DNA from: Myxococcaceae bacterium | Lineage (GTDB): Bacteria > Myxococcota_A > UBA9160 | NCBI GenBank assembly: GCA_905339255.1 | Contig: CAJPFO010000098.1 | Coordinates: forward strand, 1-39,529 | Direction of reading: 5' to 3' | DNA: 39,529 bases | Shown: in pieces, positions 31,628 to 39,529 of the stretch | How the letters are laid out: each line of letters starts with the position of its first letter | Position numbering within the stretch: the stretch's first letter is position 1 | Translations under genes and position numbers: made by a program | Notes under the pieces: generated by a model | The model's input: only the letters and a program-made list of their open reading frames with translations | Told to the model about the DNA's origin: nothing | The model's database searches: none

Positions 31628-34099
31628 TCAGGAGGCGCTCGGTGCGGACTTCGCCGCCGTCCGCGCGGCCTCGAGCTCTCGTCTCGCCTCGGCCGCCTCG
31701 GAGAAGTTCGGGTCGAGATCGAGGGCACGCTCGAACGCGGAGGCGGCTTCCGCGTTCCGGCCGAGCGCCCGGAGTACGAGTCCGAGGTGGTGTTGGTACG
31801 CGGCTTGGACGGGCTGCCCCGACTCCTCGGCGAGCTGGATCGCGTAACGCGACTGCTGGAGCGCGGGTTCGAGGAGCCCCTTCCGGAGGTAGACGTATGC
31901 GAGGGTGTCCGCAGCGTTCGGATCGGTCGAGAGCGCGCGCTGCGCCTCCTGCGCGAGCGTGAGCGCCCGCTCCAGGTTGCTGCCTTCCTGCGCGAGGAGG
32001 TATGCGAGGTCGTTCTTTGCACCCGCGAGGTCGGGGCGTTCGGCGAGTGCTCGTTCGAGCGTATCGCGAGTCTTCGAAGTCTCTCCTCGCGAGAGATAGA
32101 TCCGGGCGAGGAGGAGCCTCGCTCCCGGCGAGAGCGCTCCCGTTCGATCGGCTTCCTCGAGGGATGCGACCGCGAGGTCGAGCTTGTCTTGCGCAGCGTA
32201 GATCTGCAGCAGGAGCTCGAGCGCGCCAGGGAGGTTCGGAGCCACCTCGAAGAGGCGATTGATGTCCTTCTCGGCTTCCTCGTACCGGCGATCGGCGGCG
32301 AGAAGCCGCGCGCGGGCTAGGAGCGCTGCGGCCGGAGGTTCTCCGCCATCGATGATCGCGTCGAGTCGCTCGCGCGCCTCTCGTGCCCGACCGTTCGACA
32401 CGTCGAGACGCGTGATCGCGGCAATCAGGCCCCCATGCCTCGGCGCGCGCGAGAGCGCGGTCTCGAGGTGCTTGCGTGCGGCGTCGGGGGATTTCGCTCC
32501 CTCGCGCGCGGCGAACTCGATCGAACCGAGAATCGGCGGCTCCGGGAGCGCGAGCGCCCCTTCGAGAACCTGCCGGGCGACGATCGGTCGACCGCCCTCG
32601 TAGAGTGCGCTTGCGAGCAGCACCAGATCGCGCGGCGGCAACTCGACCCCCGCCTGCAGGAGCTGGAACCAGGTCTGCGCGGCGAGCGTCCAGTCGCGCG
32701 AGGCGTGGTGGATCCGCGCCTTCAGCATCGCCGTCTCCGGAGCACGCCCCCCCGACAGCGCGAGGCTTCGATCCGCTGCGGCGACCGCGCTCGGAAGGTT
32801 TCCGAGCTGGAATTCGGCGAGGGCGAGCATCCGATACGCCTCGGCGCTCTCGCGCTTCTGGACGAGATCTCGAAGCAGCGGCGCTGCATCGACATAGCGG
32901 CTCTCGACGGTCGCGAGGCGTGCCCGGGCGAGCTGCGTGCTCGGATCCTTCGGGAACTCCTTCTCGAGCGCAGCGATCGTCGCGAGCGCCTCGTCCCGTT
33001 TCGCGAGCTGGAGCTGGACGCCCGCGAGGAGCTCGAGCGCTCGGGCACGCTCCTCGCCCTTCGCAGCGAGCGCCGCGAGACCCTGCTCGGCCTCTTCGCC
33101 GCGGCCGTTCTGGAAGAGCCACGCCGCGCGGCGCCAGTGCGCATCGAGGTCGCTCGGGCGCTTTCCGAGAAGATCCTTCCAGACGGTGTCGCCAGAGCCG
33201 TCTTTCTGCTCGCGCGCGGTCGCGAGATCCGCCCACGCGTCGAGATTCGAGTCATCGGCCGCAACGAGTTGTTCGAGGGCGTAGATCCCGAACTCGGAAT
33301 CCTTCGCGATGCGTGCGTAGTCGAGGCCCACGGCCGCCGCCTCGCGACGCTCCCCCGCGCTGCCCTTCTGGTTCGCGATCTCGATCGCGCTCCGGAAGGC
33401 CGCGCGTGCCTCGTCAGGATGTTCTCCCCAGAAGAGGTAGGTCCGACCGATGTTGGCTCGGACGACGTGATTGCCGCCGTAGAGCTCGTCGGACTTCCGG
33501 AAAGCGGCGAGTGCCTGCTCGAAGAGCTCGTCGGGCGGCGTCTTCTTGGCAAGACGTGCCTCGCGGATCTGTGCCTGGCGGACGATCCCGATCTGCATCG
33601 GGTAGAGCGGGTCGTTCGGGGCGAGCTCGACCGCAGTCATCGCGGCAGCCAGCGCTTCTTGGGTGTTGCCTTGATGGAGAGCCACCTCCATGCGCCGAAG
33701 GTGCGCCATCGGGTTGCCGGGCTCGCGTTCGAGCACCGCGCTCACCAGCTCGAGGGCGCGGGTGGGATCCCCGCCCATCACGAGCTTCGCTTCGTCGAGC
33801 GTCGCGTCGGTTCGCGTCGGATCGAGCCGCTGTGTCTCGCGGAGGTAGAAGATTGCGTTCGCGTAATCCTGCTGTGCGACCAGCGCATTTGCGATTGCGT
33901 AGTTCGTGTCCGCGTTTCGCGGTTCGAGCTTGAGCGCGTTGCGGAGCTCGAGGAGTGCCTCGCGCGGCCTGCCCTGTTCCTGGTAGGTCTTCGCGTTCCC
34001 GAGATGCTCGAGCATCTTCTCGTGGTCCGAGCGGCAGCCACCGAGCGAGAGGCCGAGAGCGACGATCGCCACGGCTCGACGCAACGTCGAAGGACGCAT
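31628..34099 (-). CDS. TPR-repeat lipoprotein (PrsT-like)
   Basis: An 823-residue lipoprotein. A signal peptide ends in LSLGGC (lipobox), then tetratricopeptide repeats run almost without break to the C-terminus. Clear repeats include YQEQGRPREALLELRNALKL, ALVAQQDYANAIFYL, YLSRGETSKTRDTLERAL and ALGRNAEAASAFERALDLD. Length and architecture resemble the TPR lipoprotein PrsT of PEP-CTERM/exosortase gene clusters, although such repeats are weak evidence of orthology. It probably acts as a scaffold at the outer membrane. The start is ATG 34097-34099 with GAGGAG five bases upstream; ATG 34120 is less likely because it would put 7 residues before the signal. It lies 45 bases after the first TPR lipoprotein gene and directly abuts the STT3-like gene. 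Confidence 0.88.
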   Translation of the reverse strand: MRPSTLRRAVAIVALGLSLGGCRSDHEKMLEHLGNAKTYQEQGRPREALLELRNALKLEPRNADTNYAIANALVAQQDYANAIFYLRETQRLDPTRTDATLDEAKLVMGGDPTRALELVSAVLEREPGNPMAHLRRMEVALHQGNTQEALAAAMTAVELAPNDPLYPMQIGIVRQAQIREARLAKKTPPDELFEQALAAFRKSDELYGGNHVVRANIGRTYLFWGEHPDEARAAFRSAIEIANQKGSAGERREAAAVGLDYARIAKDSEFGIYALEQLVAADDSNLDAWADLATAREQKDGSGDTVWKDLLGKRPSDLDAHWRRAAWLFQNGRGEEAEQGLAALAAKGEERARALELLAGVQLQLAKRDEALATIAALEKEFPKDPSTQLARARLATVESRYVDAAPLLRDLVQKRESAEAYRMLALAEFQLGNLPSAVAAADRSLALSGGRAPETAMLKARIHHASRDWTLAAQTWFQLLQAGVELPPRDLVLLASALYEGGRPIVARQVLEGALALPEPPILGSIEFAAREGAKSPDAARKHLETALSRAPRHGGLIAAITRLDVSNGRAREARERLDAIIDGGEPPAAALLARARLLAADRRYEEAEKDINRLFEVAPNLPGALELLLQIYAAQDKLDLAVASLEEADRTGALSPGARLLLARIYLSRGETSKTRDTLERALAERPDLAGAKNDLAYLLAQEGSNLERALTLAQEAQRALSTDPNAADTLAYVYLRKGLLEPALQQSRYAIQLAEESGQPVQAAYQHHLGLVLRALGRNAEAASAFERALDLDPNFSEAAEARRELEAARTAAKSAPSAS

Positions 34100-34144
34100 C
34101 AGGACTCCTCGCGGCGCCATCGGGAGGCCGCGTATCCGGGAAGG

Positions 34145-36592
34145 CTATCCCTGCGGCTGCTCGAGCCGCGCGATCTCCTGCTTCGCGGCCTCGGCGTCCG
34201 GGAAGGGGCCGAGCGCGAGCGCCTCGCGCAGTGTCGCCATCGCCCTGTCCCGATCGCCACTTTGCGCCAGTGCGAGGCCGAGGTGATAGCGGATCGTCGG
34301 ATCCTTGGGCCGCAGCCGGAGCGCGCGCTCGAAGTCCGCGATCGCCGCGGCCGCGTCCCCACGCTTCATGCGCACGAATCCGAGCGTGTCGAGAACGTCG
34401 GCCGACGGGTTGATCTTCGAGGCGCGCTCGGCCATCGAAAGCGCCTGGTCGAGATCGCGCTCGCCGCTCGCGAGAATCCAGGCGAGATCGTTGAGCGCGT
34501 CGGCGTTCGACGGCGCGATCGCGAGAACGTCGCGAAGGCGCTGCTCTGCGCCTGCGGCATCTCCCCTTCCGAGGACGATCTGCGCCGCGCGATAACGCGC
34601 GTCGACGTTCTTCGGATCGAGGGCCCCCGCGCGCTCGACGATCTCGAGCGCCGTCTGCGGGTTCCCCGCCTCGACCTCGAGGGATGCCAATCCGATGAGC
34701 GGCCGCGCGGACGCGGGATCCGCTGCGGCAGCCTTCTCGAAGCTCGCCCTCGCGTCGGCCTTGCGTCCGAGGCGTGCGAGCGCCACTCCGCGAAGCTCGA
34801 GGAGCGAGGCCTTCTCGGGGCTCGCAGCGAGCGCCGCGTCGATCCGGGCGAGCGCCGATTCGCCGCGGCCGAGCACGAGCAGATCCTCGACCAGCGTGCG
34901 GAGCGCGTCCTCGTTCGCAGGATCCGAGAGGTCGAGCTTCGCCGACTCGATCGCCACGACGGCCTGCGCGGGGCCCTTTGCGCCCCGCTCGACGACGGCG
35001 CGCTCGACGGCCACCGCGGCCGCAGCACCCGGGACGGTCGCCATGTTGTCGAGCGTGGCGCGTGCCGCGTCGAGTTCTCCTTCGCGGGCCGCCGCCCGCA
35101 CGGCGATCCGGAATGCGGGAAGGCTCGACGGATCCCGGTGCGCGACGTGCTTCATCGCGTAGTTCGCCGCGGGGCCGTTCTCGCCGCGCTCGAGGTAGAT
35201 CGCTGCGAGTGCGAGCGACGCATCGGTCGCCGACGCGTCCGTCCGAACGGCCTCGCGGAACTCCAAGATGGCGCGGTCGCTGTCGCCGGCCTCGCGTGCC
35301 GCCGCGCCCGCCATGTAACGCGCGGCCGGGTTGTTCGGCCAGCGGCGGAGCCCGGTATCGAACGCCTCGAGCGCGCCCTTCGCATCGCCCTTCGCGAGCA
35401 GGATGCGCCCGCGCAGGATCTCACGGTAGGCAGGTTCCTGGATCGCGCCGAGCACTTCTTCGGCCTGGTCGAGCCGGCCGAGGTCCGCGTAGAGGTCGCC
35501 CTGCGCGAAGCGGAGGTTGTCGTCGCCTCCGCCGGCGAGCTGTACGGCGCGCTCGAGCGACGCGGCCGCCTCGTCGCGGCGGCCGTGACGACGCTGGAAA
35601 TCGGCGAGCACCTGCCACGCGCCCGGCGTTCCGAACGATTCTGCTGCCTCGACGAGGATCGCCTGCGCCTCGTCGATCTTTCCCGAGCGCGCGACGCGCT
35701 CAGCGAGCATGACGCGGAACGAGAGGTTCTCGGGCGCCTCCGCGACGGCCTTTCGCCAGAGCTCGGTACCCTTCTCGGGTCGTGCGGTCCTGTCGTAGAA
35801 CTGTGTCGCGAGCTGGAGTGCGAGGGGTTCGGTCGAATGGGTCGCGAGGCACTCGAGATACTGCGCCTCGGCGCGAGCCGCGTCCTTGCGACCGGTGTCG
35901 TAGAAGTTCGCGAGGGCGAGGCAGCCGCGCGCGGCGATCCCCGGGTCCCCGCTCTTCGCTCCGAGTTCCTTCACGTCTTGGTAGGTCTTCTCGGCGTCGT
36001 CGAGGCGGCCCGTTTCAGCGAGGATCGAACCGAGCAGGACGGCGGCCTGGTAGTCGTCGGGCTGCATTTCGCGAAGGCGCGTCGCATCCGCGAGCGCTTC
36101 GTCCTTGCTCCCTGCCGCGACGTACGCATGCGTGCGCATGCGGAGCGCAGCGACGTTTCCGGGGTCGGTTTCGAGAACCCGCGTCGAGACCCGGATCGCG
36201 TCGTCGGGCGCGTTCACCGAGAGGAAGGCCGAGGCGAGCAGCAGGCCCGAGGGAACCGCAAACTCGGGCGACTTCGACGACTTCTCGAGCGGCCAGACCG
36301 CGAGGCTCGGCTGCCCGGTTTGCACCAGCGCGACGCCGAGGCGATGGTTCGCCTCCGCGAGATCGGGGGACTCTTCGAGGATGCTGCGGAGGGGCTCGAT
36401 CGATTCGTTGAATTGACCGGCGTCCTGGAGCGTCCGCACCTCCTCGAGTCGCGAGTCGAGGCTCGATCCGCAGCCGAGTGCGAGGATCGAGACGGCGAGC
36501 GCGCAAGCGAGCCCTGCGAGCCGAATGCGGAGCGGGAGATCTCTTCCGCCGCCGTCCTGGAAGCGACGCGAAAGCGTGGGGATTCCCTGCAT
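34145..36592 (-). CDS. TPR-repeat lipoprotein, first gene of the operon
   Basis: An 815-residue predicted lipoprotein. After a basic N-terminus (LSRRFQDGGGRDLPLRIR) there is a hydrophobic stretch ending ILALGCGSS, a usable but not ideal lipobox. About twenty TPR-like repeats follow, for example LQDAGQFNESIEPLRSILEE, LAETGRLDDAEKTYQDVKE, LARLGRKADARASFEKAAA and RGDAAAAIADFERALRLRP. It is a paralogue in architecture of the next gene. I choose ATG 36590-36592, with GGAGGAA 9 bases upstream; ATG 36608-36610 overlaps that ribosome-binding site and would add six residues. It opens the five-gene minus-strand operon and is divergent from the sulfatase-fold gene across 66 bases. A role as outer-membrane scaffold for surface-protein or polysaccharide assembly is inference. 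Confidence 0.87.
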   Translation of the reverse strand: MQGIPTLSRRFQDGGGRDLPLRIRLAGLACALAVSILALGCGSSLDSRLEEVRTLQDAGQFNESIEPLRSILEESPDLAEANHRLGVALVQTGQPSLAVWPLEKSSKSPEFAVPSGLLLASAFLSVNAPDDAIRVSTRVLETDPGNVAALRMRTHAYVAAGSKDEALADATRLREMQPDDYQAAVLLGSILAETGRLDDAEKTYQDVKELGAKSGDPGIAARGCLALANFYDTGRKDAARAEAQYLECLATHSTEPLALQLATQFYDRTARPEKGTELWRKAVAEAPENLSFRVMLAERVARSGKIDEAQAILVEAAESFGTPGAWQVLADFQRRHGRRDEAAASLERAVQLAGGGDDNLRFAQGDLYADLGRLDQAEEVLGAIQEPAYREILRGRILLAKGDAKGALEAFDTGLRRWPNNPAARYMAGAAAREAGDSDRAILEFREAVRTDASATDASLALAAIYLERGENGPAANYAMKHVAHRDPSSLPAFRIAVRAAAREGELDAARATLDNMATVPGAAAAVAVERAVVERGAKGPAQAVVAIESAKLDLSDPANEDALRTLVEDLLVLGRGESALARIDAALAASPEKASLLELRGVALARLGRKADARASFEKAAAADPASARPLIGLASLEVEAGNPQTALEIVERAGALDPKNVDARYRAAQIVLGRGDAAGAEQRLRDVLAIAPSNADALNDLAWILASGERDLDQALSMAERASKINPSADVLDTLGFVRMKRGDAAAAIADFERALRLRPKDPTIRYHLGLALAQSGDRDRAMATLREALALGPFPDAEAAKQEIARLEQPQG

Positions 36593-36658: not shown

Positions 36659-39145
36659 GTGACCGGAACTTCGCAGAGCGAGCCCCGAGGCCGGGCTCCG
36701 GGGTTTCCCCGGCGCCGCGGTAGGGGTTCGCAGCGGCTTCTCGCGCTGCTCGCCGGGATTGCCGCCGCGCTCATGAGCGCCTGCTCCGCTCCTCCTCCGG
36801 AGCGGATCGTCCTCGTCACGATCGACACGCTGCGTGCGGACCACGTCGGTGCCTTCGGCAGCGAGCGGGCGAAAACCGCCACGCTCGATGCGCTCGCGCG
36901 TGAAGGAGTCCGCTTCGACGCGGCCTTCTCGCCGGTTCCCTTGACGCTGCCCTCGCATACCACCCTCATGACGGCACTCGACCCTCCGCGACACGGTGTC
37001 CGGCACAATTCGATCTTCCAGGTCCCGGTCGAGATTCCGACGCTCGCCGAGCGCATGAAGGAATCCGGCCGCGCGACCGCGGCGTTCGTGGGCGCGCTCG
37101 TGCTCGAATCGCGCTTCGGGCTCGATCGGGGCTTCGGGACCTATGACGATCGGATGGGCGAGAGGCGCTCGGGATTCGTGGGCTTCGCGGAGAGGCCGGC
37201 CGATCGGGTGGTCGATGCGGCGCTCGGCTGGCTCGAGAAGGCTCCCGAGCGCTTTTTCCTCTGGGTCCATTTCTATGACCCGCACGCCCTCTACGAGCCT
37301 CCGCTCGGCTATGCGCTGAGCTTCGCGAGCTCCCCTTACGACGGCGAGATCGCCTTTACCGACGCGCAGCTCGGACGACTGCTGCGAGCGATCGACGAGC
37401 GCTTCGGCGCGCAGGGGACGCTCGTCGCCGTCACTTCCGACCACGGCGAGAGCCTGGGCGAGCACCTAGAGCCCACCCACTCCTACTCGATCTACGACGC
37501 CACGCAGCGGATCCCGTTGATCCTGCGCGGAGCCGGCCTGCCGGCGGGAAGATCCATCTCCGAGCTCGTGAGGCTCTCCGACGTGGCGCCGACGCTCCTC
37601 GAGCTCGCGGAGCTGCCGCCGCTCGACGAGGTGGACGGGAGGAGTCTCCTGCCCCTCGTCCGGGGAGATCGCGACGAGCCGCGGCAGGCCTACCTCGAAA
37701 CACTCGCCACCGAGCTCGATCTCGGCTGGGCGCCGCTGTTCGGCCTCCGCGACCAGCGCTCGAAGCTGATCCGCGCCCCGCGCCCCGAGCTCTACGATCT
37801 CGAATCCGATCCTCGCGAGCTCGAGAACCGTGCCGGAGCGGAGACCGGACGTGTCGCTTCGCTCGACGCTTCGCTCGCCGAGCTTCTCGCGAGAGCGCGG
37901 CCCCTCGAAGCTCCGATCGAACTCGGTGCCGGCGAGCGGGCGAGGCTCGAGAGCCTCGGCTACGTCGTCCCGACGGCGGGCGCCGTCGAGAAGGCAGCGG
38001 CCTCGACGGGGCAGGGGCCGGATCCGAAGGACGAGATTCCGCTGCTCGCGACGGTCGCGAGGGCCTCGATGCTCGTCGCGAAGGGGAGGCCCGGGGAGGC
38101 CTTCGCCCTGCTCGCCGCAGCGGGGGATCGGGGGCCCTATCTCCTCTCGGTACGAGCCAACGCAGCGCTCGCGGCCGAGCGCCCTGCCGACGCCGAGCGA
38201 GACGCGCGCCTCGCGCTCGCGACGAGTCCCGACCGGGGCGATCTGCATCAGATCCTCGCCGAGTCCCTGCTGCGCCAGGGCCGTCTCGACGAGGCGCACA
38301 GCGCCTTCGAGCGCGCCCGGGAGGCCGAGCCCCGGCACGCGCGCCCGCTGCTCGGCCTCGGCCAGGTCGCGGAGGCGCTTCGAGATCCGGGGAGCGCGGA
38401 GCAGCACTACCGCGCCGCGCTCGACGCGTCGAGAATGAGCGAGGAGGTTCCGGAGGGGGCCTGGCGGCTCGCGTCGCTGCTCCTCGAGCAGGGGCGCGGG
38501 GACGAGGCCGACTCGCTCCTCGTGTCATTGCCGGGGGCCGTCGTCGAGACGGAGGCCGCCGCCGTGCGGATTGCTCGAGCCGAGCTCGGGGCGGGAAGGC
38601 ACGATGCGGCGCTCGCGCGCCTCGAGGCCGCCCGCGAGCGGCATCCGGAGTCGGCTCCCATCCTGCTCCTGTTCGGACACGTTCTCGAGCGCAAGGGACG
38701 TGGGGACGAGGCGCGCGCCGCCCGAGAGCGCGCGCTCGAGCTCGCTCCGGGGGCAGCAGCCGCGCGGAACGACCTCGCCTGGAGTCTCGCGCGGCAAGGA
38801 CGGGATCTCGACCGGGCGCTCGCCCTCGCCGAGGCGGCCCATGGCGCGGCCCCCGGAAGCGTGGAGTTCGCCGACACCCTCGCGCTCGTGCGGCTCCGCC
38901 GCGGGGAGGCCGCCGCGGCGCTCACGCTACTCGATGCGACGGCCCCGGCGGCGAGCGGGGACGCCAAACGAAGCCTCGGCCTCCGCAGGGCCGAGGCACT
39001 CCTTGCTCTCGGAAGGCGCGCCGCTGCGCGAGAGGCCTTCGAGAAGGCCGTGGGCCCCGGGGATCTGCCCTCTCCCCCTCCCGACTGGGCGGAGGGGGCG
39101 TCGGAGCTCGCGCGCAGGCTCGGCCTGAGCGCCCCCAGCCCCTGA
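36659..39145 (+). CDS. Sulfatase-fold (alkaline phosphatase superfamily) / TPR fusion lipoprotein
   Basis: An 828-residue protein. A basic N-terminus and hydrophobic segment end at SAC-SAP (Cys42), a probable lipoprotein signal. Residues 48-395 form the sulfatase fold, with metal-binding TIDTLRADHVG (Asp56), LTLPSHTTLMTAL (95-107), FYDPHALYEPP, TSDHGESLGEH (259-269) and ELYDLESDPRELEN. From about 440 to the end there are TPR-like repeats (LLRQGRLDEAHSAFERAREA). The residue where sulfatases carry a Cys or Ser converted to formylglycine is Thr96, and the C/S-x-P-x-R motif is absent, so it may be a phosphohydrolase or phospho-transferase. The start is GTG 36659 with AGAGGAG 8 bases upstream. It is divergent from the TPR/STT3 operon. 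Confidence 0.87.
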   Translation: MTGTSQSEPRGRAPGFPRRRGRGSQRLLALLAGIAAALMSACSAPPPERIVLVTIDTLRADHVGAFGSERAKTATLDALAREGVRFDAAFSPVPLTLPSHTTLMTALDPPRHGVRHNSIFQVPVEIPTLAERMKESGRATAAFVGALVLESRFGLDRGFGTYDDRMGERRSGFVGFAERPADRVVDAALGWLEKAPERFFLWVHFYDPHALYEPPLGYALSFASSPYDGEIAFTDAQLGRLLRAIDERFGAQGTLVAVTSDHGESLGEHLEPTHSYSIYDATQRIPLILRGAGLPAGRSISELVRLSDVAPTLLELAELPPLDEVDGRSLLPLVRGDRDEPRQAYLETLATELDLGWAPLFGLRDQRSKLIRAPRPELYDLESDPRELENRAGAETGRVASLDASLAELLARARPLEAPIELGAGERARLESLGYVVPTAGAVEKAAASTGQGPDPKDEIPLLATVARASMLVAKGRPGEAFALLAAAGDRGPYLLSVRANAALAAERPADAERDARLALATSPDRGDLHQILAESLLRQGRLDEAHSAFERAREAEPRHARPLLGLGQVAEALRDPGSAEQHYRAALDASRMSEEVPEGAWRLASLLLEQGRGDEADSLLVSLPGAVVETEAAAVRIARAELGAGRHDAALARLEAARERHPESAPILLLFGHVLERKGRGDEARAARERALELAPGAAAARNDLAWSLARQGRDLDRALALAEAAHGAAPGSVEFADTLALVRLRRGEAAAALTLLDATAPAASGDAKRSLGLRRAEALLALGRRAAAREAFEKAVGPGDLPSPPPDWAEGASELARRLGLSAPSP

Positions 39146-39213: not shown

Positions 39214-39240
39214 TCCCCCCGCGTGGGGGGAAGGGGTTTT
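39214..39240 (+). terminator. Second hairpin, possible backup terminator
   Basis: TCCCCCC (39214-39220) pairs perfectly with GGGGGGA (39225-39231) around a GCGT loop. AGGGG and TTTT (39237-39240) follow, so the U-tract is displaced by five bases from the stem. Confidence 0.4.
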
Positions 39241-39359
39241 CTCCTGGGAAGGAAAATTCTTTCCCGAGCTGCCGGCGTAGCCTCGGCCACCTCCGTGATC
39301 ACCGCTATGCAATCTAATGAAAACAGGGGGTTACAGGATCTCGTCCAAGTGGCCCGGGC

Positions 39360-39375
39360 TGGCACCCCCCTTGCA
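39360..39375 (+). promoter_or_regulatory. Sigma-54 (RpoN) promoter, -24/-12 element
   Basis: TGGCAC (39360-39365), five bases, then TTGCA (39371-39375) match the consensus TGGCAC-N5-TTGCA at every conserved position, with the GG and GC doublets at the required spacing. Transcription should begin near 39386, about 88 bases before the ATG at 39474. Sigma-54 promoters need an AAA+ activator bound upstream; no activator gene is in the window. Confidence 0.8.
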
Positions 39376-39473
39376 GTAGGGGGAGCGCGGTTGGTTGAAT
39401 GCGCCGGGGTCTCGGCAGGGTGCCGCAAACGGATCCTGGCTTCGTTGGACGGATGAGCAAAGGAGTTGGATCC

Positions 39474-39529
39474 ATGCGCAAGTTGTTCGGTCTTCTCGCT
39501 GCGGCCGCCGTGATGGTCGCGGGTCAGGC
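39474..39529 (+). CDS. Secreted protein of unknown type (N-terminal signal peptide only; cut by window end)
   Basis: Only the first 18 codons are visible: MRKLFGLLAAAAVMVAGQ. The two positive residues followed by a hydrophobic alanine-rich core are a Sec signal peptide. The start is ATG 39474 with AGGAG 8 bases upstream, a strong ribosome-binding site. Expression appears to be under a sigma-54 promoter. Small exported proteins with such signals are typical of PEP-CTERM-like, pilin-like or other surface proteins, but the C-terminus that would decide lies beyond the window. No function can be given. Confidence 0.7.
   Translation, partial: MRKLFGLLAAAAVMVAGQ

Follow-up and report, generated by a model that had tools for sequence, protein, structure and literature searches.

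A putative σ54 promoter with a candidate tandem GGAAAN4TTTCC enhancer in front of a predicted PEP-CTERM gene of a probable member of an uncultured Myxococcota order

A link between RpoN (σ54) and exosortase substrates has been proposed for Proteobacteria that possess PrsK/PrsR (PMC1569441). Of 167 PEP-CTERM genes of Proteobacteria, 99 were described by Haft et al. (2006) as preceded by a σ54 cis-element, which these authors connected with PrsK, PrsR and PrsT; the published enhancer of these genes is a 17-nt motif that ends in TTTACA and is located 32–92 nt (~63 nt) before the σ54 motif (PMC1569441). In Aquincola tertiaricarbonis, pepA has an RpoN1-dependent promoter (TGGCAC / CTGCTT) with a mapped start (PMC9850573).

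The stretch of DNA analyzed here (the window, 39,529 bases) is the entire contig C98 of a 4.28-Mb genome that is 90% complete and assembled into 335 contigs. Features identified at its end are listed in Table 1. The sequence TGGCACCCCCCTTGCA is the sole window instance of TGGCACN5TTGC with zero mismatches; looser matches (two mismatches or fewer) occur at chance level, 14 versus 16.7 expected. Since the σ54 weight matrix used was built from the known consensus rather than from sites of this group, its scores rank sites but are uncalibrated for the group; on this scale, TGGCACCCCCCTTGCA receives 17.1 bits (maximum 19.95) and is the only site above 13 bits on either strand of the window. The -24 GG and -12 GC are both present, and the distance from the promoter to the ATG at 39474 is 114 nt. 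The first 18 residues of the protein (MRKLFGLLAAAAVMVAGQ) read, by eye, as the start of a signal peptide; the gene stops at codon 18 because the assembly ends there. The original prediction of a near-perfect RpoN site followed by a good ribosome-binding site and a signal peptide described this region correctly; the likely enhancer, which it missed, lies upstream of the interval it quoted. When the window and the loci of its paralogues (see below) were compared with Rfam, no structured leader RNA emerged, the sole match being a tRNA in L002.

Exact TGGCACN5TTGC matches number 18 in the genome, compared with 5 for the reversed control, so chance matches do occur. That TGGCACCCCCCTTGCA is one of them, i.e., a fortuitous string in GC-rich DNA in front of an ordinary secreted-protein gene, is nevertheless extremely unlikely, given that the site is intergenic, correctly oriented and spaced relative to the gene, and accompanied by a 10/10 enhancer palindrome at the usual distance, and that the same layout recurs at a paralogue and at syntenic orthologues.

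Table 1. Features at the end of the window, with their positions and the grounds for each
Feature	Positions	Strand	Remarks
Lipoprotein with a sulfatase-family (alkaline phosphatase superfamily) domain and TPR repeats	36659–39145	+	Precedes PEP-CTERM genes in relatives
Distal copy of the likely enhancer, GGAAGGGGTTTTCT (8/10 to GGAAAN4TTTCC)	39229–39242	+	Offset from the proximal copy by 22 bp
Proximal palindrome of the likely enhancer, GGAAAATTCTTTCC (10/10)	39251–39264	+	Distance to the -24 element, 109 nt
σ54 (RpoN) -24/-12 element, TGGCACCCCCCTTGCA	39360–39375	+	Sequence, mismatch scan, weight matrix
Predicted 5′ untranslated leader	39386–39473	+	Start placed ~12 nt past the -12 GC
Ribosome-binding site, AAGGAG	39460–39465	+	Sequence
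Predicted PEP-CTERM gene, first 18 codons (MRKLFGLLAAAAVMVAGQ...)	39474–39529	+	Tail carried by the paralogue and syntenic orthologues

The window region 39407–39525, which spans the leader and the gene start, is 82% identical at the DNA level to a locus on contig C300. The product of the C300 paralogue is 237 residues long and has a signal peptide and a PEP-CTERM tail, VPEPSTLLLLASGVATLALLGRTRASG (short form VPEPSTLLLLASGVATLALLGRTR), that exceeds the cut-offs of both NCBIfam (17.5, cut-off 16) and Pfam (21.4, cut-off 20.7). Its σ54 site, TGGCATGGGCCTTGCG (15.8 bits), is located 111 nt before the ATG, and the enhancer is also present. Members of the window-gene family were found in 52 of the 97 genomes searched, with the weaker matches partly due to the shared tail. 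A second paralogue (C90:21086–21792, L003) is apparently frameshifted and looks like a decayed PEP-CTERM gene; no obvious σ54 site was found within 400 nt upstream of it. Two contigs that open inside PEP-CTERM tails, C58 and C66, were considered as continuations of the window and rejected, their tails resembling, by eye, those of other families.

The closest orthologues of the sulfatase-family/TPR lipoprotein are followed by same-strand PEP-CTERM genes of the window family in three genomes (G014, G007 and G047). The same order is apparently present in a fourth, G034, where the gene is split over two contig ends; in two relatives from the genome scan (L285 and L287), the lipoprotein orthologue has no adjoining PEP-CTERM gene of this family. 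PEP-CTERM genes beside lipoprotein orthologues are frequently arranged in tandem, and such repetition may explain the break in the assembly at this point. Three such tandem genes are found in G047, each with a 17.1-bit σ54 site, and their palindromes are located at -111, -111 and -109, compared with -109 in the window; two of the three proteins start with MRKLL and the window protein with MRKLF. The 39474 gene is accordingly predicted, from the tails of its relatives, to be a PEP-CTERM (exosortase-substrate) gene whose own tail would lie beyond the contig end, and it is probably the first gene of a tandem PEP-CTERM array.

A TIGR02595 search of the genome returned 64 PEP-CTERM matches, nearly all of them over the cut-off. 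Among the 56 testable genes (those of at least 100 residues, with start codons picked by a heuristic), 11 have a σ54 site of at least 15 bits on the right strand within 350 nt upstream. None has such a site in antisense, and 0.35 were expected, a conservative figure since the background rate includes the PEP-CTERM sites themselves. Altogether, 14 sites of at least 15 bits were present in the 735 kb of scanned strand of fetched DNA, 11 of them upstream of PEP-CTERM genes. Two of the genome-level checks attached to the original prediction gave positive results: there is one copy of rpoN (Sigma54_DBD, 216.9 bits vs a cut-off of 22.8) and there are two exosortases, one of which is above the XrtA cut-off (225 vs 208). 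Taken with the paralogue and orthologue tails and the regulon, these genes uphold the core of that prediction, a PEP-CTERM gene behind a σ54 promoter.

Joint inspection of the promoters brought out an inverted repeat, GGAAANNNNTTTCC, ~100 bp upstream and usually in two copies 21–22 bp apart. At a match of 9/10 or 10/10, it is found at 10 of 12 promoters (window included) compared with 13 of 1500 random windows; with the window excluded, it accompanies 9 of the 11 PEP-CTERM genes with a σ54 site and 1 of the 44 without (Fisher p = 8e-8), but the repeat was first spotted by eye in these promoters and scored afterwards, so that such within-genome counts are no independent test. At seven promoters, including that of the window, the repeat is accompanied by another copy (8/10 or better) at a distance of 21–22 bp, i.e., two helix turns. 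Perfect GGAAAN4TTTCC palindromes occur nine times in the genome, and seven of these are located 86–174 nt upstream of σ54 sites; the remaining two are not paired with a σ54 site and look intragenic. Two PEP-CTERM promoters, C250 and C279, have a σ54 site without the enhancer.

A test independent of motif discovery is provided by the exact pattern in other genomes. The combination palindrome-N62-92-promoter was found in 18 of 97 genomes (our genome included), always in the same order, while the reversed control gave 0. As judged by motif, the σ54 element of the window has an upstream activator site within the expected ~80–170 nt, and the two palindromes at the window end are likely to constitute a σ54 enhancer. 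Literature screened by title and abstract for GGAAAA/TTTTCC in connection with enhancer-binding proteins contained no described match.

In relatives, the enhancer-plus-promoter sites are followed by PEP-CTERM genes, genes for short secreted proteins and a pilin-like gene; behind some of the sites, no gene is evident. The short secreted proteins at L208, L209, L211, L213, L219 and L222 have DxDxDG repeats that resemble calcium-binding motifs, and their end is dockerin-like; a type IV pilin-like gene lies behind a perfect palindrome and σ54 site in L207. At four loci (L206, L215, L216 and L223), no open reading frame is evident behind the enhancer and σ54 sites; in L206, a terminator-like hairpin follows ~200 nt downstream. 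These sites could possibly drive σ54-dependent small RNAs. In this genome, a perfect palindrome is also located 120 nt upstream of a 14.9-bit σ54 site on C245 (L075:6162–6297), and the frame behind that site reads as a 5′-3′ exonuclease, not a secreted protein.

The original prediction had found the combination to fit the pattern of RpoN control with PrsK-PrsR and of PrsT as a TPR lipoprotein. Neither part agrees with the curated models: the best genomic match to PrsR reaches 440 bits (cut-off 502.6), the best match to PrsK 132 bits (cut-off 300), and the two of the three window TPR proteins that were scored reach 165 and 108 bits with PrsT (cut-off 312), the direct neighbor of the promoter being the sulfatase-family/TPR protein. 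The exact TTTACA, the end by which the published 17-nt enhancer was represented in our search, was absent between -130 and -20 at all 12 promoters; in the window, a different palindrome takes the place of the PrsR-type enhancer.

The 165-bit PrsT match belongs to the product of 31628–34120, which has a lipoprotein signal. This gene and that at 34145–~36592 are two large TPR-repeat genes on the minus strand, oriented away from the sulfatase/TPR gene. The sulfatase-family/TPR lipoprotein itself, like L245, L246, L247 and L249, has TLPSH at the position of the sulfatase CxPxR motif, and a Thr nucleophile is suspected. Possibly, this lipoprotein and the tandem PEP-CTERM genes form a modifier/substrate pair.

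Control of the promoter by the published PrsK-PrsR system must still be weighed. The regulator encoded at C104:6913–8259 is the source of the 440-bit PrsR match, the best in the genome, and is likewise an NtrC/AtoC-class protein; moreover, PEP-CTERM genes with σ54 sites are the setting in which PrsR was proposed (PMC1569441). However, this regulator scores about equally on AtoC and NtrC models, and no PrsK over the cut-off was found in the genome, the kinase that accompanies the regulator being a different protein, a pseudo-activator/kinase fusion. Since, in addition, GGAAAN4TTTCC at ~100 nt differs from a TTTACA-ended motif at ~63 nt, we consider PrsK-PrsR control improbable.

The partner of the C104 regulator is a 668-residue protein (L121:3267–5273) preceded, at C104:3172, by a σ54 site (15.8 bits) and a 9/10 palindrome. 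Sequence and model inspection revealed an N-terminal receiver-like domain that lacks the acidic pocket (WIVHRD), then an AAA+ domain of the σ54-activator type in which the Walker-A Lys is replaced by Arg and GAFTGA is absent, and, after a disordered linker, a C-terminal histidine-kinase part with the invariant His. In a fold search, the first half matched NtrC1/NtrX and the second half ZraS/RetS; there was no matching curated family for this pseudo-receiver/pseudo-AAA+/histidine-kinase fusion. Its orthologues (L253–L282) have a σ54 site of at least 14.5 bits 44–184 nt upstream in 29 of 30 cases and a palindrome of 9/10 or better in 20 of 30, but these genes are related by descent and do not amount to 30 independent tests. 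In most testable relatives, the gene directly 3′ of the partner gene encodes a regulator 56–73% identical to that of C104; in this genome, the two are separated by what reads as an aldehyde dehydrogenase gene. The C104 regulator has GAFTDA instead of GAFTGA; for Desulfovibrio, this variant is listed among those that permit activation (PMC4641369).

The best candidate for the source of the palindrome-binding protein is a self-regulating pair with the palindrome in common with its presumed targets, and this co-occurrence inclines us to regard the NtrC-type regulator C104:6913–8259 as the probable activator, with some reservation. Activation of a genuine promoter by another NtrC-type regulator, for instance that encoded at C61:5303–6718 on the exosortase contig, seems possible but rather doubtful to us. 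The genome contains about a dozen further regulators of this type, one of them ~4 kb from the XrtA-type exosortase, and the lack of the enhancer at the C250 and C279 promoters means that several activators may be at work. Against this, a conserved σ54 promoter combined with the same palindrome was seen, among the promoters examined, only at the C104 pair; the σ54 site ahead of the C94 kinase, for example, has no palindrome.

From the promoter and enhancer motifs, the regulon enrichment, the paralogue and orthologue tails and the presence of RpoN and exosortases, all read from sequence, we conclude that the window very probably ends in an RpoN-driven PEP-CTERM gene served by an NtrC/AtoC-type activator that acts on two palindromes. 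We infer its transcription, the identity of the activator and the processing and location of the protein to be as follows. The RpoN-RNA polymerase would occupy the -24/-12 element as a closed complex; the activator, bound to both palindromes, would loop the DNA and open the complex, with transcription starting near position 39386. The C104 regulator would be worked by its conserved pseudo-activator/histidine-kinase partner, itself under a promoter of the same kind. The product would be exported by means of its signal peptide, its C-terminal tail would be handled by the genome's exosortase, and its final place would be the cell envelope or the matrix.

In a broader reading, to which we give an even chance of being right, the cell-exterior genes of an uncultured Myxococcota order, which specify PEP-CTERM and other secreted proteins, a pilin and some apparently non-coding transcripts, form one σ54 regulon. 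It would be governed by an undescribed self-regulating pair that consists of the pseudo-receiver/pseudo-AAA+/histidine-kinase fusion and an NtrC/AtoC-type activator acting on tandem GGAAAN4TTTCC. If true, this would be a second σ54 route to exosortase substrates, apart from PrsK/PrsR. The analysis yields a DNA motif precise enough to be tested, together with a regulator candidate and a promoter set, and it ties the sulfatase-family/TPR lipoprotein to tandem PEP-CTERM genes.

Three described systems can be compared with this one. Desulfovibrio vulgaris DVUA0057, listed as PrsR, is likewise an NtrC-type response regulator with σ54 targets and a connection to exopolysaccharide and biofilm (PMC4641369, PMC1569441); it differs from the C104 regulator, the comparison being one of class and targets. 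At pepA of A. tertiaricarbonis, a σ54 promoter also directly precedes the PEP-CTERM gene and a TPR-protein gene adjoins it, but that gene is prsT and is located downstream of pepA, whereas here a sulfatase-family/TPR lipoprotein gene is located upstream (PMC9850573). The genes of Haft et al. (2006) share with ours the PEP-CTERM class, long intergenic regions, the -24/-12 element, an upstream activator motif and an exosortase genome (PMC1569441). The motifs of that study came from the Proteobacteria of the time (PMC1569441), whereas the named relatives here are Myxococcota or 'Deltaproteobacteria' MAGs; judged by these relatives, the genome of the window probably belongs to an uncultured Myxococcota order. 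In this genome, the motif is GGAAAN4TTTCC, often in tandem and ~100 nt upstream, with PrsK and PrsR under the cut-off. What sets this system apart from published PEP-CTERM control is the sequence and distance of the enhancer, the absence of PrsK and PrsR matches over the cut-off and, probably, the activator too. That the same logic recurs with a different enhancer and, probably, with a different activator pair suggests that σ54 control of PEP-CTERM genes has arisen or been rewired more than once.
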